Below are positions 17,133 to 32,031 of a DNA stretch of 47,173 nt, in pieces. Position numbers and translations under genes: made by a program. The notes under the pieces were generated by a model, which was given only the letters and a program-made list of their open reading frames with translations, was not told where the DNA came from and ran no database searches. Source of the DNA: Desulfovibrionales bacterium (GTDB taxonomy: Bacteria > Desulfobacterota > Desulfovibrionia > Desulfovibrionales > Desulfonatronaceae). Position 1 is the stretch's first letter. Each line of letters starts with the position of its first letter. The stretch spans positions 1 to 47,173 of the forward strand of contig REDL01000047.1 in the NCBI GenBank assembly GCA_007693505.1. The letters are read 5' to 3'.

Positions 17133-17213
17133 CCGTTATTTCCCTGGCTTGTCCCTCCGGCGGTCCCAGGTCTCTTCGCGAGAACGACAGCCAAAACAGA
17201 CAGCTTCGTGTTC

Positions 17214-20003
17214 ATGGCCAAATTTTCCCAACCGTCCTCGGTCCGTGACAACAATGCCGCTTCCAGATTGCGCGCGGAGCGCAACGAACTGCTACGAACA
17301 GCAGTGGCCACGGGCTGCATCCCGGAGAACTTCTCGTTACGGCTGACCCGGCTCACGGACCGCTATTTCCAGGCCAGGGTTGCAGAGATCCAGTCATGCT
17401 CCTGCATCGGCACGCCACCTCTTTCAGGCGCAGCGTTTGTTGTTGTCGCCGTTGGAGGTTATGGCCAAGAAACCCTTTGTCCCGGTTCGGACCTGGACGT
17501 GCTGGTGCTCTTCCAGGACAGCGTGCCCGCGAGCACGGAAGACTTCTGTCAAGACCTGTTTCTTCCGCTCTGGGACCTGGGATTGGAACTGGGGCACGGC
17601 GTTCGCGGTCTGGATGAATGCCTTCGTCTGGCAGATGAAGATCAAAAGACATTCACCGCCCTGCTTTCAGCGCGCTACCTGACCGGTGATCCTGCTGTGA
17701 TGCGCCGCTTTGCCGAGGCATTCATTCAGCAGGCCGCCCACCACGATTTTTCCGTCCTGGCGGATATTTTCGATCCCCCCGAACGCACGGAGCGGATACC
17801 CGTGCGCACGGAAACCGGTGCTACGGAAAACGACCCACGGCTTGCCGAGTTCGATTTTGACCTGACCGCGGAGAATCTTCTCGAACCCAATCTGAAATCC
17901 ACTCCGGGCGGTCTCCGTGACTACCATCGTCTACTCTGGTTGGCTGTCCCGCGTCTGACGGATCAAGGTCGCCGGATTACCACCTCTCCCGCGGGCCCGT
18001 TCTCGGACATGGATGTTGCCGATCTGCACCAGGATGTAACCTTTTTGCTTCGAACCCGCTCAGCCCTGCACATGACGGTTGGACGCAAGGCCGATGTTCT
18101 GCATCTGGAAATCCAGCCGGAAGTGGCCCGACTTCTGGGTTTCGTGAATCCTGATGCCGGATTGGCCGTGGAAGTGTTTCTGGGACGGCTGCACAGGGCC
18201 ATGGGACGCATCCGGGCCATGTACCTGACTGTCCTGCGGACACTTCGCGGCCTGGATCAGACACGCTCGATTCACTTCCTTAACCAGGAAACGGAGCAGG
18301 ACATCATTTTAGCCGCCGATGGACTGGCCCTGGCTCAGCCCCCCACCTCCCAAGCGTCCCCTTCTTCTGGAAAACAAGTCATGGCCCTTTTCCAGGCCAT
18401 GGGGCGTACCGGTTTGCCGCTGTCCTGGGCAGTACGCAGTCCGCTCGCCGCTGTCTGTTCTCACCTCCTCCGGGACGTGGGGGAAAGGTCTGCAACTCTT
18501 CAGCAACTGGCCATGATTCTGGCCGCGCCCGGAGGGCGACAAGCCGGTCGGGACATGCTCGCCACGGGGGTTCTGGCCGCCTTGATTCCAGAACTGGGTC
18601 GCGTCCAAGACCACATTCAGTTCGATGCCTATCATCTGCGTCCAGTTGGGGCGCACACCGTGGAAGCCATCGGTTTCCTCAGCACATGGCGCAATCAGGA
18701 TGCAGTTCAGGACCCGGACCGTCACCCATCCCAGATAATGAGCCGGGAAGCCCAGTTGGCCAGCGACATTTGGCAACGTATTCCAGAGCCAACAGCCCTG
18801 ATCCTGGGGACGCTCCTGCATGACATCGCAAAGGGGGCTGCTGATCATGCCCAAGCCGGAGCGAACGTAGCCAATCAGATCCTTCGGCGTTTTCAGGCCC
18901 CGGAAGAACTGCTTGACGAGGTGGAGTTTTTGGTCCGCGAACACCTGTTGCTGTTCAAAACCGCCACTCGCAAGGACCTTCACGACGAGCAGGTCGTGGC
19001 CGGCTGTGCCGAACGTATCGGGATAAGCACTCGGCTGGATCATTTGATGCTCCTCAGCATGGCCGATGCCCGAGCCACGGGGCCAAAAGCCTGGAATGCG
19101 TGGAACGCCGCCCTGCTCCGCGATCTTTATTTCAAGATTCGCAAGCTGTTCACCCATGGCCCGCTGTCCCACCCCCAGGCCATGCAGCGCCTTGAAATGC
19201 TTCGGCTAACAGTTCTCCACGGTTTTTCGGAATCTGACATTTCGCCAGAACTGGACGGTTTGCTGCATCACCTTCCTCTGCGCTATCTGCTGACCACTCC
19301 TGCTGAAACCATTGTCCGCCACATTCAAATTGTCGATCGACTTCAACGGAACACGGTGGCAGAGAAAATCCGCATCCCCGGAGGTCGCGGCGGCCTGGGG
19401 CTGGCTGAGGTGGAGGTGGTCACGCTGACTGACTCGGGTTGTCACGAAGTGACATTTGCCGTCATGGCCCAACCCGGCATCTTTCCTGTGCTTTGCGGCG
19501 TTCTGACGCTGCATGGGCTGGATGTTCTTGCCGCAGAAATGATCTCCTGGCCAGAAGACGTCGTGCTCACGGTGTTCAAAACCCAGGACCCGCCAGATCT
19601 CTTGCACTTGGAGGAACTGGCCTTCCGGCTCAAACAGTCAGTCAAGTTCACCATGACCGGCAAACTGTTTCTGGCAGAACGACTGACGGAAAAATGGCAG
19701 TCCCGATTGAACAGCATCGCTCCACCCTCAGCCCTGCCCCCGACCGTACACATCGACAACGAAGCAAATGATTTCTCTACCCAGATTGAGATCGTTGCCG
19801 ATGATGGCCCTGGTTGCCTGTATCAGCTAGCTGAAACCTTCGAACGCCTTCGCGTCCAAATCATTCGGGCCAAGATCGCCACCCAGATTGACCGCATTGC
19901 CGACAGCTTCGATGTCCGAGACCATCTTGGCCAAAAAATCACGGACACTGCCCAGATTAATGCAATTCGGGAAGCCTTGCTTGATGCCCTGAGCCAGATC
20001 TGA
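17214..20003 (+). CDS. glnD: [Protein-PII] uridylyltransferase / uridylyl-removing enzyme
   Basis: GlnD adds UMP to P-II when glutamine is low and removes it when glutamine is high. The protein (929 aa from ATG 17214; a GTG at 17208 adds two residues) has the nucleotidyltransferase motif GGYGQETLCPGSDLDVLVLF (Asp93 and Asp95), the GlnD-type linker with NLKSTPGGLRDYH, an HD phosphohydrolase domain with HD at residues 536-537 in LLHDIAKG, and two C-terminal ACT domains (about 725-800 and 850-925) that bind glutamine. All domains appear intact. The ribosome binding site is weak, which may mean translation is coupled or modest. Confidence 0.95.
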   Translation: MAKFSQPSSVRDNNAASRLRAERNELLRTAVATGCIPENFSLRLTRLTDRYFQARVAEIQSCSCIGTPPLSGAAFVVVAVGGYGQETLCPGSDLDVLVLFQDSVPASTEDFCQDLFLPLWDLGLELGHGVRGLDECLRLADEDQKTFTALLSARYLTGDPAVMRRFAEAFIQQAAHHDFSVLADIFDPPERTERIPVRTETGATENDPRLAEFDFDLTAENLLEPNLKSTPGGLRDYHRLLWLAVPRLTDQGRRITTSPAGPFSDMDVADLHQDVTFLLRTRSALHMTVGRKADVLHLEIQPEVARLLGFVNPDAGLAVEVFLGRLHRAMGRIRAMYLTVLRTLRGLDQTRSIHFLNQETEQDIILAADGLALAQPPTSQASPSSGKQVMALFQAMGRTGLPLSWAVRSPLAAVCSHLLRDVGERSATLQQLAMILAAPGGRQAGRDMLATGVLAALIPELGRVQDHIQFDAYHLRPVGAHTVEAIGFLSTWRNQDAVQDPDRHPSQIMSREAQLASDIWQRIPEPTALILGTLLHDIAKGAADHAQAGANVANQILRRFQAPEELLDEVEFLVREHLLLFKTATRKDLHDEQVVAGCAERIGISTRLDHLMLLSMADARATGPKAWNAWNAALLRDLYFKIRKLFTHGPLSHPQAMQRLEMLRLTVLHGFSESDISPELDGLLHHLPLRYLLTTPAETIVRHIQIVDRLQRNTVAEKIRIPGGRGGLGLAEVEVVTLTDSGCHEVTFAVMAQPGIFPVLCGVLTLHGLDVLAAEMISWPEDVVLTVFKTQDPPDLLHLEELAFRLKQSVKFTMTGKLFLAERLTEKWQSRLNSIAPPSALPPTVHIDNEANDFSTQIEIVADDGPGCLYQLAETFERLRVQIIRAKIATQIDRIADSFDVRDHLGQKITDTAQINAIREALLDALSQI

Positions 20004-20012
20004 GCAGCCTTG

Positions 20013-20043
20013 CCCATGCGGTTCCCGGACAAAGGGAAATGGG
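20013..20043 (+). terminator. Possible terminator hairpin after glnD
   Basis: CCCAT (20013-20017) and TTCCC (20022-20026) pair with GGGAA (20034-20038) and ATGGG (20039-20043), giving a bulged 10-bp stem ten bases after the glnD stop. There is no clear U-tract. Confidence 0.4.
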
Positions 20044-20206
20044 GGGAGCCATTTTCTCGCCCAGGTACACGGATTCCCTGCACAGTAGACAGAAACCTGA
20101 AGTTCAAACGCCTTGCTCAACCTCACACCCTGTTTCGGGAAAAGAGACATACCGAGAACGTCCGGCACCATTAAGACCATGTCGCAAATGATGCCGGACC
20201 GCTGAT

Positions 20207-20224
20207 CTTCGACGACCGTCGAAG
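20207..20224 (-). promoter_or_regulatory. SECIS-like hairpin for the second UGA codon
   Basis: On the minus strand CTTCGAC-GGTC-GTCGAAG forms a perfect 7-bp stem with a GGUC loop. The loop starts 17 bases after the UGA at 20237-20235, inside the 16-37 base range known for bacterial SECIS elements, and GGUC resembles the apical loop of the E. coli fdhF SECIS. It lies just after the TAA stop. It could be mistaken for a terminator, but no U-run follows. Confidence 0.7.
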
Positions 20225-20225
20225 C

Positions 20226-20435
20226 TTATACGCCTCAGGTTCCCCCGAAGCCCACGGTGGTCTTTTGCTCAGTCACGATTACGGGCACCTTTCGTTGGCC
20301 CTGACTGTGCTTGAGCATCTGTTCCATGTGTTTGGGATTGATTTTTACATCATGGTAGACATGGCCGGGATGCGCCTCACGGGCGCGTGTGGTATGGGGT
20401 CACCCCTGTTTTCCATAAATAATCGTCTGGCTCAT
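20226..20435 (-). CDS. Uxx-star-type glutaredoxin-like selenoprotein with two in-frame UGA codons
   Basis: Read with UGA as selenocysteine (U), the minus strand encodes 69 aa: MSQTIIYGKQGUPHTTRARE at the start, a thioredoxin-fold middle ending in RKVPVIVTEQKTTVGFGGT, then UGV and a TAA stop. U12 (codon 20402-20400) sits where glutaredoxins have the CPYC cysteine, in GKQGUPHT. U67 (20237-20235) gives the C-terminal U-x-x-stop arrangement after which, as I recall, the Uxx-star family is named. Each UGA has a hairpin downstream at SECIS distance. An AAGGAG site lies seven bases before ATG 20435, and a good promoter lies further upstream. A frame this conserved in pattern across an internal stop is hard to explain otherwise. 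If only U12 is decoded, the protein ends at residue 66. The function is probably thiol or selenol redox chemistry. The Sec machinery itself is not in the window. Confidence 0.85.
20372..20386 (-). promoter_or_regulatory. SECIS-like hairpin for the first UGA codon
   Basis: On the minus strand GCGCC-CGTGA-GGCGC forms a 5-bp stem whose loop starts 18 bases after the UGA at 20402-20400. A G is present at loop position 2, as bacterial SECIS rules require. It lies wholly within the coding sequence, as is normal in bacteria. Confidence 0.65.
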
Positions 20436-20473
20436 AATCCTTCTCCTTGGCTGAATGTGACAAGCATTCATCC

Positions 20474-20502
20474 ATTTGACATTCACCGCTTTCCTGAGTC
20501 AA
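20474..20502 (-). promoter_or_regulatory. Sigma-70-type promoter of the selenoprotein gene
   Basis: On the minus strand TTGACT (20502-20497, 5 of 6 consensus) is followed after exactly 17 bases by TCAAAT (20479-20474, 4 of 6). Transcription would begin near 20467, giving a leader of about 30 bases before ATG 20435. Confidence 0.5.
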
Positions 20503-20732
20503 CCTGCATACCGAACGGTCGATCAAGGCCCGGAAGAGCGCTAGCATTGATTATACCGTCCGAGCGTTGATTGAACCCTTTGATTCAAACCTACCCACGG
20601 GACCGTGTCACGGCCACTTGCTTCAGGCAAAAAAAAATGGACAACTCCGTTGCGAAATTCTCCGCAACCGTGGACGGGGAACCTCCTCCTGCTGCATTTG
20701 GGCTGGCTCCACGGGCCGCTTAAGGAGCAGCC
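20503..20732. other. Non-coding leader upstream of the trehalose gene
   Basis: Between the selenoprotein promoter and the start of the trehalose gene I see no gene. A short palindrome CCGTGTCACGG lies near 20603-20613. The otsA start has GGAG about six bases upstream (TAAGGAGCAGCC). Confidence 0.35.
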
Positions 20733-22934
20733 ATGCGTCTTGTTATCGTTTCCAATCGTCTGCCCATCAGCCTTGTGGAACAAGACGGAAAAATCATCGC
20801 CAAGGAATCCGTCGGCGGCCTTGCCACCGGATTGAATTCCTATCTGGACACCCTGGACAGGAACTCGCCCTTCAGCGGTGATCCGCTCTGGGTCGGCTGG
20901 CCTGGAATGTACCTGGACGACCCGAGCCGATTCGATTTTACCTCGCGGATCATGGGCAAATTTCGAATCTGTCCGGTCAACGTGACCCCGGATCAAATAG
21001 ACAGTTTTTATCTCGGTTTCTGTAACTCGACGCTTTGGCCACTGTTCCACTATTTTCCGTCATACGTGGCCTTCGACGAAGCCTCCTGGGACAGCTATGT
21101 TCAGGTCAACGACATCTTTCGTCAGGCCGTGGAATCTGTTCTGGAACCTGACGATGTGGTCTGGGTGCATGACTACCAGATCATGCTTCTGCCGGAAATG
21201 ATCCGTGCCCGCCGTCCGGACGTGACCAGCGGTTTCTTTTTGCACATCCCCTTTCCGTCGTATGAAATCTTTCGACTGCTGCCCAGCATCTGGCGCTCAC
21301 GTCTGCTCCAGGGGCTGCTGGGTTCGGATCTCATTGGTTTTCATACCTACGATTATTCCCAACATTTTTTGAGCAGCGTGTCCGCCATTCTCGGTCTGGA
21401 ACACCATTTGGGCAAAATCATGGTCGGGGATCGTCTGGTCAAGGTGGACACTTTTCCCATGGGTATTGACTACCACAAGTACGCTCAGGCTGCCCGGGAC
21501 CAGCGCACCCAGGACGAGAAGCAGGAACTTCGCGAATCCCTGGGCTCGGCCAAAATCATGCTGTCCATCGACCGCCTGGACTACAGCAAGGGCATTGCCA
21601 ACCGGCTACGGGGATACGAGGCGTTTTTGGAGCGCTATCCGCAGTGGCATGAGCGGGTCATTTTGATGCTCGTGGTCGTCCCGTCCCGGACCGGTGTGGG
21701 CAAATACCAAGAGATGAAGAAACAGATCGATGAGCTGGTGGGGGCGATCAACGGTCGTTTCGGCAAACTGTCCTGGTCTCCGATCATCTACCAGTATACG
21801 GCCTATCCGCTCCGGGAACTGACCATGCTCTACGACATCAGCGACGTGGCCCTGGTCACTCCGCTTCGGGACGGGATGAATTTGATCGCCAAGGAATACA
21901 TCGCAGCCAAGACAGACGATCAGGGTGTCCTTGTGCTCAGCGAGACGGCCGGAGCGGCCACGGAGTTGGGGGAAACCTTGATCGTCAACCCCAACAGCCT
22001 GTCGGACATCGCCGATGCCATTCACAAAGCCCTGGAAACACCGAGCGAGGATCAGCGCCAGATCATGACCCTGCTCAAAAATCGGCTGGAACGATTCGAC
22101 GTCAACCACTGGGCCGAAGACTTCATGAATTCGCTTTTGCAGGTCAAGACGGAACAGGAACGGATGGAATCCACATTCATCAGCACCGAGGCTGCCTTGC
22201 AGGTGGTGCAGCAATGCGCTTCCGCCCAAAGCCGTTTGCTGCTCCTGGATTATGACGGCACGCTTGTGCCTTTTCACGACGCCCCGTCCATGGCCTGCCC
22301 ATCCGAGGAGATCAAGGCCTCTTTGCAGGCCTTGACCGCCTTGCCGAATACCCAGGTGGTCATTCTCAGCGGCCGGGACAAGCATAATCTGGAACGATGC
22401 CTGGACAGCCTGCCGGTGGCCCTGGTGGCCGAACACGGGGTCTGGGTCCGGGAGGCAGGAGGCCAGTGGCAGATGATCCGGCCTCTGCTCAACGATTGGA
22501 AGGATCAGATTCGACCAATCCTGGAGCGTTTCAGCTCGCGGGTGCCCGGCACCTTCATTGAGGACAAGGATTTTTCCATGGCCTGGCACTATCGCCGGGC
22601 GGACCGCAATCTCGGCCAGCAACGGTCCCGGGAGCTGGCCGAGACGCTGCGCGGATTGGCCTCCAACGTGGGCATCCAGGTTCAGCAAGGCCCGATGGTT
22701 GTCGAGGTCCGCAGTGCCGGAATCAGCAAGGCCGTGTCCGCACTGCACTTCAGTGCCAAGCAGGCATGGGACTTCATTCTGGCCATGGGCGACGCGGAAA
22801 GCGATGAAGACATGTTCAGGACCCTGCCGGACCACGCCGTGACCATCCGGGTCGGCCACGACCAGTCCCATGCCACCTACAATATCCGCAACCCGCGGGC
22901 CGCCGGTGTGCTTTTGCGAAACTTCGCCTTGTAA
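20733..22934 (+). CDS. otsAB: Fused trehalose-6-phosphate synthase / phosphatase
   Basis: The 733-aa protein makes trehalose, an osmoprotectant, in two steps. Residues 1-480 are a GT20 trehalose-6-phosphate synthase: N-terminal VSNRLPIS, GGLATGL, WVHDYQIMLLP, HIPFPSYEIFR, SIDRLDYSKGI and LRDGMNLIAKEY bind UDP-glucose and glucose-6-phosphate. Residues 490-733 are an OtsB-type HAD phosphatase with DYDGTL at 506-511, SGRD and GDAESDEDMF. Fusions of this kind occur in several bacteria and in eukaryotes. An AAGGAG site precedes the ATG. The gene stands alone, divergent from the selenoprotein gene and convergent with pyk. Confidence 0.95.
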   Translation: MRLVIVSNRLPISLVEQDGKIIAKESVGGLATGLNSYLDTLDRNSPFSGDPLWVGWPGMYLDDPSRFDFTSRIMGKFRICPVNVTPDQIDSFYLGFCNSTLWPLFHYFPSYVAFDEASWDSYVQVNDIFRQAVESVLEPDDVVWVHDYQIMLLPEMIRARRPDVTSGFFLHIPFPSYEIFRLLPSIWRSRLLQGLLGSDLIGFHTYDYSQHFLSSVSAILGLEHHLGKIMVGDRLVKVDTFPMGIDYHKYAQAARDQRTQDEKQELRESLGSAKIMLSIDRLDYSKGIANRLRGYEAFLERYPQWHERVILMLVVVPSRTGVGKYQEMKKQIDELVGAINGRFGKLSWSPIIYQYTAYPLRELTMLYDISDVALVTPLRDGMNLIAKEYIAAKTDDQGVLVLSETAGAATELGETLIVNPNSLSDIADAIHKALETPSEDQRQIMTLLKNRLERFDVNHWAEDFMNSLLQVKTEQERMESTFISTEAALQVVQQCASAQSRLLLLDYDGTLVPFHDAPSMACPSEEIKASLQALTALPNTQVVILSGRDKHNLERCLDSLPVALVAEHGVWVREAGGQWQMIRPLLNDWKDQIRPILERFSSRVPGTFIEDKDFSMAWHYRRADRNLGQQRSRELAETLRGLASNVGIQVQQGPMVVEVRSAGISKAVSALHFSAKQAWDFILAMGDAESDEDMFRTLPDHAVTIRVGHDQSHATYNIRNPRAAGVLLRNFAL

Positions 22935-27226: not shown

Positions 27227-28771
27227 TCATGGAAATGCTCCCCGACCGGCGGTGATGATTTTCGCGACACCCAGGGGGCTCCATTCCCAACCGGCAAAAA
27301 CCCCGGCAGCCAGGGAGAAAAAGGCTGTGGCCAAGGTGGGCAGCAAAAGCATCCATGGTGCTTCCCAGGCTCGGCATGCCCCCGGAGACACTTCCCGACT
27401 TTCCTTGAAAACGGTTCCCTGGCCGGCATCTCCGGATTCCCCTGAGCAGGGGCGAAACCAGGCCCGGTAAAGGATGGGCAGAAAGTAGGCAGCGTTGAGC
27501 AGACTGCTGAGGACCAAAACCGCCACCACCCAGTCCTGGCCGGCCTGAATGCCCGCTTGGGCCAGGTACCACTTGCTGACAAAGCCGGCCACCGGAGGCA
27601 CGCCGACCATGCCGAGGGCGGCAATGGTGAACAAGGCCATGGTCATGGGCATGGTCCGGCCCAGCCCGTCCATCTGGTCGATGCGGTGGATGTTACGAGA
27701 CCGGGCAAAAATTCCGGCGCAAAAAAACAGGGTGATTTTCATGATCCCTTGATGAACCAGATGGACCAAACCGCCCACAGTGGCCAGTGGGCCGAGAACC
27801 ACTGCGCCGAGGGCGATATACGACACCTGACTGACCGTGGAATAGGCCAGTCGGCGCTTTAGTTCGCTTTGCATCAACGCTCGCAAAGAGCCGAAGAGAA
27901 TCGTGGCCACCACCAACGCGGCCAAGGGATCCAGCACCCCGAGATGGGTCGCGAAATCCTTGCCGTAAACGTCCTGAACCACTCGCAGGAGGCCGAAGGC
28001 TCCGGCCTTGACCACGGCCACGGCGTGCAGCAGCGCGCTGACCGGCGCAGGAGCGACCATGGCCACGGGAAGCCAACCATGCAAAGGGACAAAGGCTATC
28101 TTCACGGCCAGCCCGCAGATCAACAACGTAAAAATAACCCGGGCTTCCCATATTCCGACATGTTCCATGGCCGACAGGACCCCGCCGGAGACAAAGTCAA
28201 AGGGGCCGACCAGGGTTTGCAGCCCGACAACTCCCAGAAACAGTACAGCCCCCGCGCTCATGGCATACCAGAGATACGTCCGTCCGGCGGCCAGGGCTTG
28301 TGGGGTACCTTGATGAATTACCAGGGGATAGGTGACCAGGGTCAGGAATTCATAAAAAATGAAAAAGGTAATCAGGTTTCCGGCCAGGGCCACACCGGTG
28401 GATGCGGTTACGCACAGGCTGAAGAACCCGAAAAATCGGCTACGGTTTGGCGAGCCTTCCAGGTAGCCCACAGCGTAGAGGGTGGTCAGAAACCAGAGGT
28501 TGCTGGACAGCGAGACAAAGGCAAGAGAGAGCAGATCGACCTTGAGCAGAAAGTCGAATCCCAGCCCCATGGCGAAGCGGACCTCATAGGTCATGCCCTG
28601 GGCCAGGACACCCCAGGCCATGACAAAAACACCGACCACCTTCACGGTGGCCCCGGCCATGTTCAAGGCGGTCCGCAACCCTGAACGATCTTCCGGCAGG
28701 AGAAAGATGATCAATCCGGTAAACAGGGAACTGTACAGTACGATCAACGGTAGCCAGAAGCTCATGGTCAT
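27227..28771 (-). CDS. MrpD/NuoM-like antiporter subunit (second copy)
   Basis: A 514-aa polytopic protein of the proton-antiporter M family. Conserved stretches include FIFYEFLTLVTYPLVIH, AVKIAFVPLHGWLPVAMVAPAPVSALLHAVAV and RRLAYSTVSQVSYI, and it contains the family's pump-like lysine/glutamate helices. ATG 28771 is preferred because AAGGAG lies seven bases upstream and the ATGA overlaps the stop of the preceding subunit; the frame opens 38 codons earlier in sequence that belongs to the upstream gene. Together with its two neighbours it forms the ion-translocating core of the complex. Confidence 0.9.
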   Translation of the reverse strand: MTMSFWLPLIVLYSSLFTGLIIFLLPEDRSGLRTALNMAGATVKVVGVFVMAWGVLAQGMTYEVRFAMGLGFDFLLKVDLLSLAFVSLSSNLWFLTTLYAVGYLEGSPNRSRFFGFFSLCVTASTGVALAGNLITFFIFYEFLTLVTYPLVIHQGTPQALAAGRTYLWYAMSAGAVLFLGVVGLQTLVGPFDFVSGGVLSAMEHVGIWEARVIFTLLICGLAVKIAFVPLHGWLPVAMVAPAPVSALLHAVAVVKAGAFGLLRVVQDVYGKDFATHLGVLDPLAALVVATILFGSLRALMQSELKRRLAYSTVSQVSYIALGAVVLGPLATVGGLVHLVHQGIMKITLFFCAGIFARSRNIHRIDQMDGLGRTMPMTMALFTIAALGMVGVPPVAGFVSKWYLAQAGIQAGQDWVVAVLVLSSLLNAAYFLPILYRAWFRPCSGESGDAGQGTVFKESREVSPGACRAWEAPWMLLLPTLATAFFSLAAGVFAGWEWSPLGVAKIITAGRGAFP

Positions 28772-30342
28772 GGCCGTTCTCCTTGAGAGAACCCAAGGTA
28801 GAGCCCGCCTGGTGAGACATCCAGTCCAAGACCATGAGGCAACAGGGCAATGACTTCTTCGGCCCGGAAACCGAACAGCACGCACAGCACGGCAAGGGCC
28901 AGCGCCGCCAGGGTCATCAGCCTGGGAACAGGGCGCACCGCCTGGGCATCTTTCGATTCCAGTGCGCCCTGGTTTTCATGGGGATCAGAGCGGGAATTCG
29001 TTGTTCTCCTGGCGGCCGGAACAAAGGCGAAGGCCAGAACTTTGAAGACATAGGCCGCGGTAAGCAGTCCCCCGAGAGCTATGACCACGGCCCACCACCA
29101 CTGTCCACTGGCCAGGCTGGCCTTGAGCAGCATCCATTTGGCAACAAAGCCGGCACTGGGAGGCAAACCCATGAGACTGACGCCGGCCACTCCAAGCGTG
29201 AAGGTGATAACGGGCAAGCGTCCAGCCATGTCCGGCATGGCTGCCAGTTCGTCCGTATCCATGGCCAGCAGCAGGCAGCCGGCGGCCATGAACAGGGACG
29301 CTTTGGCCAAACCATGGGAAACGACATGAAACACCGTACCGGTCCAGGCCATGACCGCCCATTCCTCGGCCCTGGTCGCTCCCCCCGAAGGTGCAAGCAG
29401 GGCAAAAAGGAAAAACAGGTATCCCAACTGCCCCACTGTGGAATAGGCGACCAACAGCTTCAAACGGGTTTGGCGCACGGCCTGCAATGATCCCCAGAGA
29501 ACGGCCGCCCCGCCGAGCATCCCCAAAAGTTGGCCCGTGAGGGGCACGGTGAGCATCGGAAAGACGACGAACCAGATGCGGAGCAACAGGAAAAAAGAGG
29601 CTTTGGTTACCACGCCGGAGAGGATGGCGCTGACCGGTGCCGGTGCGCTGGCATGGGCCGGAGGCAGCCAGAAATGGAAGGGCAACAGCGCGCTTTTGAT
29701 CAGCAATCCGCCGGTCATTAAACCAAAAGCAATCACCGTAGGGAGCGAGACACGCATCTGTTCAGCCAGCCGAAACAGATCCAGATGGCCTATCTCGGCA
29801 TAAAGCAGCGCCACTCCCAAAAGATAGATCAGTGAACCGAACATGGCCGCCAAAAGATACCGCAATCCCGCTACCAAAGATTCACGGGTGCCGGAGAGAA
29901 TGGTCAGTCCAACAGCGGCCAGCCCGACAACTTCCAGGAGCACATACGCGTTGAAGATGTCCGAGCTGAGATAAACCCCGTTCAACCCGCCCCAAAGCAC
30001 CAGCCAGATCGGCCAGAAGTACGGTTCCATGCGCCGGTAGTCTGCTGCCCTGCCAAAAAAACCGTTCGCATACACGCCCACCAGCAAACCAACCAGTGCC
30101 GTGAGCAACAAAAACATCATCCCCAGGCCGTCAAGGTACAGTCCGATACCCAGCGGAGTTGTCCAGCCACCCAGGTCGATGCGGATAACTTCCTGGTTCC
30201 AGACCTGCAGGAGTTGAGCGAGACAGGCTCCAAACGTCCCACCGGACGCGGTCAAACCGGCCCAGGCGACGAATCGCCCTCGGAGCAGCAAACATGCCGC
30301 TGCCCCTAAAAACGGGATGAGGATCATCCAGACGGGTTGCAT
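28768..30342 (-). CDS. mrpD: MrpD-like antiporter subunit (first copy)
   Basis: A 524-aa polytopic proton-antiporter M family protein, and the most MrpD-like of the three copies: it directly follows mrpC, as MrpD does in standard operons. Conserved helices include FNAYVLLEVVGLAAVGL, LIKSALLPFHFWLPPAHASAPAPVSAILSG and LVAYSTVGQLGYLFFL. Start and stop both overlap neighbours (TAATG with mrpC upstream and ATGA downstream), which shows tight translational coupling. Confidence 0.91.
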   Translation of the reverse strand: MQPVWMILIPFLGAAACLLLRGRFVAWAGLTASGGTFGACLAQLLQVWNQEVIRIDLGGWTTPLGIGLYLDGLGMMFLLLTALVGLLVGVYANGFFGRAADYRRMEPYFWPIWLVLWGGLNGVYLSSDIFNAYVLLEVVGLAAVGLTILSGTRESLVAGLRYLLAAMFGSLIYLLGVALLYAEIGHLDLFRLAEQMRVSLPTVIAFGLMTGGLLIKSALLPFHFWLPPAHASAPAPVSAILSGVVTKASFFLLLRIWFVVFPMLTVPLTGQLLGMLGGAAVLWGSLQAVRQTRLKLLVAYSTVGQLGYLFFLFALLAPSGGATRAEEWAVMAWTGTVFHVVSHGLAKASLFMAAGCLLLAMDTDELAAMPDMAGRLPVITFTLGVAGVSLMGLPPSAGFVAKWMLLKASLASGQWWWAVVIALGGLLTAAYVFKVLAFAFVPAARRTTNSRSDPHENQGALESKDAQAVRPVPRLMTLAALALAVLCVLFGFRAEEVIALLPHGLGLDVSPGGLYLGFSQGERP

Positions 30343-30722
30343 TACGGTGCGGAACCAGTCCGGTTTTCCGGGGGCTCGTCGTTTTGGCTGTCGTTTTGTT
30401 GCACTTCGTTCATCAGGTCCGAACCCATGTCCTGCTTCTGGGCATGGTAGATGCGTCGCACCAGTGCCAGGGCAAACGCCGTGGCGCTGATGGCCACAAC
30501 AATTCCGGTCAGGACCATGGCATGGGGCACGGGATCGGCAGAGGAGGATTCACCGATTCCCTGATTGCGGTATGCCGTGCTAATCAGCAAGAGGAACACA
30601 CCACCGGCCAGGACATTCAAGGCCATGATCTGCCGCAAAAGGTGCCGGCGGCTGATCAGTCCATGGATGCCCAGTCCTGCAAGCAGGACAGCGGTCAAAG
30701 AATAGATCAGGAAAGGGGTCAT
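30342..30722 (-). CDS. mrpC: Na+/H+ antiporter subunit C, MnhC/MrpC (NuoK-like)
   Basis: A 126-aa NuoK-like membrane protein with three predicted helices (about residues 4-22, 29-48 and 66-88). The LLRQIMALNVLAGGVFLLLI and DPVPHAMVLTGIVVAISATAFALALV segments are typical of MrpC. The C-terminus carries an unusual hydrophilic, Asn/Gln/Glu-rich tail of about 30 residues. I start at 30722, since the longer frame upstream overlaps the mrpB fusion and lacks homology. Start and stop overlap both neighbours. Confidence 0.9.
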   Translation of the reverse strand: MTPFLIYSLTAVLLAGLGIHGLISRRHLLRQIMALNVLAGGVFLLLISTAYRNQGIGESSSADPVPHAMVLTGIVVAISATAFALALVRRIYHAQKQDMGSDLMNEVQQNDSQNDEPPENRTGSAP

Positions 30723-31708
30723 GGCTCTTCGTCCACCACCAGGACCAGAATCACCAGGGCGGCCAGCGTGACGCCGATGGAAACGGTTGCCGCGGCTTCC
30801 AAGGTCAGGATCATGGTTTTGGACCAAAGTGGTGGGTATTCCAGAGGGTGGTAGATGGACAAAAGAGTGGTCGCCACGGCCAGGAGCAGGATGGTGGCAA
30901 AACCCAGGACAACAAGGCAGACCAAAGTGACGCGAGGCAGTCGGTCCACGGAAGGCAGGCCCACCAATCGAAAAAGCACCAGTCCTGCAGCCAGGACGAC
31001 TCCGGCCTGAAAGGCGCCTCCCGGGGCATGGTCACCCAGCCAGAGCAAATGAACTGTAACCAGTACCGTCAGTGGCCCCAGCAGCAGTACCAAGCCGCGT
31101 AATACAGGGGCATCGACCGGATGCGCGGGCAGGGATCGCAAATCCTGGGCGCCGCGCACACCGAAAACACCGATCAAGGCCAAGAGCAGAACTCCCAGTT
31201 CCAGCCAAGTGTCGTAGAGACGAAAGGCGAGCAGCACCGCGGTTACCGGGTGATCGACACCAACCATCTCCAGGTTATCGGCAACGATTTCGGTCAGTCC
31301 CGTTCCTTGCCGCGGCAGGTCCATGACAGCCAGAGCCAGCAAAAGGGTAAGCATGCCGGCGCATCCACCGGCCATGCCGTAGTGAAACCGTCCAGGACAG
31401 GCCGCGGCCTGGTCCAGTCGGCAGGCGCCCGGTGGCTGGACATCGTCGTTGGCATCGTGGTTTTGTCGCGACTGCGGCTCGATACGCTTGAAGGTTCCAA
31501 TCAGCAGCACCCCGGCAAGACCGGCACCTACGGCGGCTTCGGCCAGAGCAATGTCCGGAGCCTGGAGACGGACCCATGCCAAAGCCAAAAAAAGTCCGAA
31601 GGAGATGAACAGCACCGTGGCCTGGAAAAGATCCGAAGCCTGTAAAAGGCGCCAGCTGACCAGCAACAAGGCCCCGGCCAGCAGCAGATCAAAGGCCAGG
31701 GACAACAT
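30719..31708 (-). CDS. mrpB: Fusion of MrpA C-terminal (DUF4040/MbhE-like) domains with MnhB/MrpB
   Basis: The 329-aa membrane protein joins parts that are separate or differently joined in classical Mrp. Residues 1-75 resemble DUF4040, the MrpA C-terminal/MbhD part (FGLFLALAWVRLQAPDIALAEAAVGAGLAGVLL). Residues 110-200 resemble the MbhE-like segment (DHPVTAVLLAFRLYDTWLELGVLLLALIGVFGVRG). Residues 210-329 are MnhB (LLWLGDHAPGGAFQAGVVLA, then VSIGVTLAALVILVLV). No full MrpA gene is present; its antiporter half seems replaced by an extra MrpD-like protein. Start 31708 overlaps the mrpG stop as TGATG. Confidence 0.87.
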   Translation of the reverse strand: MLSLAFDLLLAGALLLVSWRLLQASDLFQATVLFISFGLFLALAWVRLQAPDIALAEAAVGAGLAGVLLIGTFKRIEPQSRQNHDANDDVQPPGACRLDQAAACPGRFHYGMAGGCAGMLTLLLALAVMDLPRQGTGLTEIVADNLEMVGVDHPVTAVLLAFRLYDTWLELGVLLLALIGVFGVRGAQDLRSLPAHPVDAPVLRGLVLLLGPLTVLVTVHLLWLGDHAPGGAFQAGVVLAAGLVLFRLVGLPSVDRLPRVTLVCLVVLGFATILLLAVATTLLSIYHPLEYPPLWSKTMILTLEAAATVSIGVTLAALVILVLVVDEEP

Positions 31709-32031
31709 CAGTGCCGATACCTCACCAACGGCTGGGCATCCCCCCCGCTGGGGGATTGGGAGCGACGCTGCATGCTCCGTCCCAGGAGAAAGCAAATCGT
31801 GGAGCTGGCTGCCAGAGCCACCAGCCAAATCAGCAGGATTTTCAGCATTTCAGCCAGGGATTGGCTGGTGAGCATCAAGGCCAGGGCGATCAGCCCCAGT
31901 CCGAGGTTATCGGCTTTGGTCAAGGCATGAATGCGGCTCATGGCATCTGGAAACCGCAACAGGCCGACTGTCCCAGCCAGAAAAAAAAATGCTCCGGCCA
32001 GACACAACCCGATGGCCGCCGCTGCGATCAT
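31708..32031 (-). CDS. mrpG: Na+/H+ antiporter subunit G, MnhG/MrpG
   Basis: A 107-aa membrane protein with three helices and the MnhG signature LAGTVGLLRFPDAMSRIHALTKADNLGLGL. I start at ATG 32031, which has AAGGTG suitably spaced; a GTG at 32043, two bases after the mrpF stop, is the alternative. The C-terminus is a short basic, hydrophilic tail. It is coupled to mrpB through a TGATG overlap. Confidence 0.9.
   Translation of the reverse strand: MIAAAAIGLCLAGAFFFLAGTVGLLRFPDAMSRIHALTKADNLGLGLIALALMLTSQSLAEMLKILLIWLVALAASSTICFLLGRSMQRRSQSPSGGDAQPLVRYRH

Follow-up and report, generated by a model that had tools for sequence, protein, structure and literature searches.

The question raised by this locus was whether an apparently empty interval of a Desulfovibrionales genome encodes a selenoprotein and, if so, how many of its UGA codons are recoded and what its product might do. 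The interval lies in the contig REDL01000047.1, positions 1 to 47,173 of which form the window, between glnD (17208-20003) and a fused otsA/otsB gene (20733-22934). Under translation table 11, positions 20004-20732 contained no large open reading frame and standard gene finding gave nothing there, as a preliminary description of the window had stated. That description placed in the gap a minus-strand selenoprotein gene with a thioredoxin fold, to be read through one in-frame UGA.

Identification of the gene and its product

The frame, the UGA at 20402-20400 and the peptide GKQGUPHTTRARE with RKVPVIVTEQKTTVGFGGT were all found as the preliminary description gave them. When UGA was translated as selenocysteine (Sec, U), the product (20435..20226, minus strand) had 69 residues, beginning with MSQTIIY ahead of that peptide and ending in GFGGTUGV. 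The UGA at codon 12 was real, but it was not the only one, and a second in-frame UGA at 20237-20235 (U67), inside the range that had been described, had been overlooked. The C terminus read UGV-TAA (20237-20226), with U67 two codons ahead of the end. U12 was followed by T15 as UxxT, and with Thr at residue 15 the active site was left without a CxxC-type partner. Taken together, the sequence comparisons indicate that this is very probably a stand-alone gene for a 69-residue double selenoprotein of glutaredoxin fold, belonging to the NCBIfam UXX-star family 1, in which UGA12 and UGA67 are both recoded.

The signals proposed upstream of the gene were also located. The AAGGAG site that had been described lay seven bases before the ATG. 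The promoter-like sequence, with TTGACT at 20502-20497, a 17-base spacer and TCAAAT at 20479-20474, was present as well, and the arrangement TTGAC(T/C)-N17-(T/G)CAAA(T/C) stood upstream of the same gene in five of the seven congeners compared (this one counted); its -10 part was weak, however, and a consensus promoter scan did not flag it. The features of the locus are collected in Table 1.

Table 1. Features assigned to the predicted double selenoprotein gene (positions in the window)
Feature	Position	Strand	Basis
UXX-star family 1 double selenoprotein gene (NF041114), predicted, 69 aa, ATG to TAA	20226..20435	minus	translation with TGA as U, NCBIfam match, alignment of 144 relatives
UGA codon 12, predicted Sec; UPHT motif, start of helix 1	20400..20402	minus	144 relatives: U in 101, C in 43
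UGA codon 67, predicted second Sec, in C-terminal U-x-x-stop	20235..20237	minus	TGA in 144/144 relatives
True stop codon TAA	20226..20228	minus	read from sequence and translation
SECIS-type hairpin for UGA12, GCGCC-CGTGA-GGCGC, within coding sequence	20372..20386	minus	covariation, absent in C12 relatives
SECIS-type hairpin for UGA67, CTTCGAC-GGTC-GTCGAAG, just 3' of TAA	20207..20224	minus	pairing, compensating pairs, shuffles
Ribosome-binding site AAGGAG, 7 nt before ATG 20435	20443..20448	minus	read from sequence
Promoter-like TTGACT-N17-TCAAAT	20474..20502	minus	read from sequence; kept upstream of gene in congeners

Family assignment and predicted fold

The product matched NF041114 (UXX-star selenoprotein family 1) over model positions 2-70 of 70 with 107.2 bits against a cut-off of 72 (E = 3.6e-31), and it passed the cut-off of the Uxx_star superfamily NF041212 (69.1 against 66 bits), whereas its scores for families 2 and 3 (NF041211 and NF047338) were far under their cut-offs. 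With family 1 the product shared a full-length match, two Sec, the UxxT motif and the U-x-x-stop ending, and no difference that matters was found; with the superfamily and families 2 and 3 it shared a glutaredoxin-like fold and the overall length. In a 2026 review the family is entered as "Distant Grx-like protein 1", with UxxT and two Sec (PMC13188914). The gene is an ordinary member of a family already modelled and published with two Sec, and its novelty is low.

The assignment of the product to the Uxx-star glutaredoxin-like proteins in the preliminary description was thus borne out as to the family, but "Uxx-star" had been taken there for an N-terminal active-site motif, whereas the shared hallmark was the C-terminal U-x-x-stop. 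The name itself probably refers to this ending and not to the active site, because in 142 of the 144 family members extracted the terminator fell exactly three codons past U67. The two residues in between were mostly GV, NV or HV.

The thioredoxin fold that had been described was seen in the predicted structure as a glutaredoxin fold. An AlphaFold model, built from an alignment of 67 family members with Cys standing in for Sec, reached a pLDDT of 90. Its best Foldseek matches were glutaredoxins, with modest E-values (about 0.001) and a probability of 1.0; a profile search recovered Grx3 and other glutaredoxins, and the score for Pfam Glutaredoxin (PF00462) was 26.7 bits against a gathering score of 22.9. 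In its fold, its cis-Pro region (KVP/TVP) and the position of its active site the product resembled the classical glutaredoxins, for example Grx3 of E. coli (1fov, 3grx). Unlike the Grx3-type proteins, it had UPHT in place of CPYC, stopped shortly past the last strand and carried an extra Sec near its C terminus.

Conservation of the two UGA codons

A full-length gene with both UGAs was present in seven of eight genomes from the family or genus, and matches to NF041114 above its cut-off were found in 73 of 348 genomes of the class and in 100 of 395 genomes of a phylum sample. Chance origin of the predicted reading frame is excluded by the E-value of 3.6e-31 and by the full-length genes in these close relatives. 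The 144 members were extracted from one phylum as matches to the NF041114 model only, and within this sample position 12 was U in 101 members and C in 43. These are the homologs with U or C at this position that the preliminary description had looked to as a check. Position 67 was encoded by TGA in all 144 members and never by TAA or TAG, with the extraction script set to report any member lacking U67. Among these sequences, the predicted Sec at position 67 is more conserved than that at position 12, with the stronger putative SECIS element. In a tree of 141 members, which was weak owing to the few alignment columns but in which the interchange of U and C was nonetheless clear, the state at position 12 had switched at least 7 times on well-supported branches and 10 times by parsimony. 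No relative was encoded in phage records.

The terminator after U67 could be called clearly in 143 members and was TGA in 65, TAA in 39 and TAG in 39. In about 45% of the clear cases (e.g. L066, L076 and L083), UGA would be read in two ways nine bases apart. One member (L053, match 1501-1695) carried a further in-frame TGA (three in all) in place of the YGK glycine, which is probably a mutation or a sequencing error.

Selenocysteine machinery of the genome

The genome (136 contigs, 98.5% complete) was searched for sel genes, and all four that the preliminary description had named for such a check were found elsewhere in it: selA (607 bits), selB (384 bits), selD (329 bits) and selC, the gene of tRNA-Sec (82 bits, anticodon TCA). 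The machinery and the family match above cut-off both agreed with the 69-residue selenoprotein with U at position 12 that had been described. The selD gene (G000:C37:40202-41119, minus strand, L019) is a selenoprotein gene too, its active-site motif AGUASK containing an in-frame TGA.

Hairpins downstream of UGA12 and UGA67

The preliminary description had noted a SECIS-like hairpin 18 bases after UGA12. The hairpin was found, with its loop CGTGA starting 18 nt after the UGA; taken alone, its folding was no better than that of shuffled sequences (z -0.11), but across relatives the stem covaried. In 43 U12 members 87% of the stem cells were paired, with compensating changes in 29 cells versus 7.4 in shuffles, and the covariation was 0.413 versus 0.147 in shuffles (0/500). 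The same columns in 35 C12 members gave no signal (0.186 versus 0.161). Part of the pairing reflects the conserved A-R-E-A, since this hairpin is under coding constraint, for which the comparison with the C12 members controls partly.

This hairpin was not the only one: a second (20224-20207) lay beyond the stop codon and outside the coordinates given before. In near relatives it was 100% paired with three compensating pairs, and the stems around a constant GGTC loop were CTTCGAC/GTCGAAG, GTTCGGC/GCCGAAC, TTTCAGC/GCTGAAA and TTTCGGC/GCCGAAA. Plain MAFFT alignment with RNAalifold gave no consensus structure for the UGA67 region because the spacing of the hairpin varies, and this region was assessed by an anchored alignment and shuffle tests instead. 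Against dinucleotide shuffles, the mean energy of the site 67 hairpin was -9.8 versus -1.5 kcal/mol in U12 members and -9.8 versus -1.3 kcal/mol in C12 members, whereas that of the site 12 hairpin was clear in U12 members (-4.8 versus -1.0 kcal/mol) and weak in C12 members (-2.7 versus -1.7 kcal/mol). This contrast is a natural control, in which the first putative signal fades with Cys12 and the second stays. The predicted hairpins at the two sites are the best evidence for the recoding of both UGAs. No SECIS family of Rfam was found at this locus, which says little because bacterial SECIS elements are highly variable.

Two readings with fewer recoded codons were weighed against the recoding of both. 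If only UGA12 were recoded and UGA67 were a real stop, the product would have 66 residues and end in GFGGT, which is what the sequence quoted in the preliminary description implies. Taken alone, a UGA so close to a further stop, only two codons ahead of it, could well be a normal terminator, and the next terminator is TGA in 65 of 143 relatives; however, a plain stop would hardly remain TGA in every member, followed by two preferred codons and a stop, nor would it be accompanied at the right distance by a strong, covarying hairpin in U12 and C12 members alike. NF041114 also models residues beyond U67, and the review counts two Sec (PMC13188914). The shorter product is thus very improbable. That both UGAs are ordinary stops, in a pseudogene or a spurious similarity, would agree with the blank left by standard gene finding, but it is hardly credible when 101 relatives from across the phylum keep both UGAs at these codon positions in a frame that is otherwise open, when the Sec machinery of the genome is complete and when the stems covary at both sites.

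Proposed mechanism and function

In the dual recoding that we favor, SelB, tRNA-Sec and a SECIS hairpin 3' of each UGA would recode UGA12 and UGA67, the former through the hairpin in the coding sequence and the latter through the hairpin in the 3' untranslated region, and the TAA would terminate translation. The protein would be a thiol/selenol redox protein of the glutaredoxin type with Sec12, placed where helix 1 begins, as its likely nucleophile, and the invariant Sec67 may be the resolving partner of Sec12 through a diselenide or selenylsulfide, or a second soft-metal ligand. We prefer a putative mechanism in which two selenols carried by a minimal glutaredoxin fold would work as a redox pair, and metal binding is a serious rival.

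Under this rival the dual recoding would stand, but the two selenols would serve chiefly to bind or chaperone soft metals or metalloids, and the protein would not be primarily a redox enzyme. The review suggests that the Sec residues of UXX-star proteins may be metal-binding ligands or may bind unknown substrates (PMC13188914), and an invariant Sec67 beside a Sec12 exchangeable with Cys, in a motif without a second CxxC-type thiol, is consistent with such a role. The glutaredoxin fold and the profile matches argue against it, as do the adjacent genes, glnD and otsAB, and no metal-resistance gene was recognised among the neighbours recurring in relatives. We consider metal binding as the main function rather unlikely. 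Across the family the gene neighbourhood was not conserved, with only lineage-specific neighbours (named by eye), and gave no functional clue.

A further reading starts from the contrast between U67, which never changed in the 144 members, and position 12, which went from Sec to Cys or back at least seven times. Sec67, and not Sec12, might be the residue for which the family is kept, and the protein might be a two-selenol device in which the C-terminal tail does the chemistry, not a working glutaredoxin. This is put forward as a tentative possibility.

With these results a gene overlooked by standard ORF calling is now confirmed. In this family nature has also provided a clean test case of dual UGA recoding: at the inner UGA the SECIS is in frame and fades when Sec becomes Cys, and at the terminal UGA the SECIS lies past the stop codon, while the next stop, often UGA too, must yet terminate. 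Elsewhere in the window, hydrophobic frames on the minus strand at 27227-31828 resembled, by eye, subunits of a multi-subunit cation/proton antiporter.
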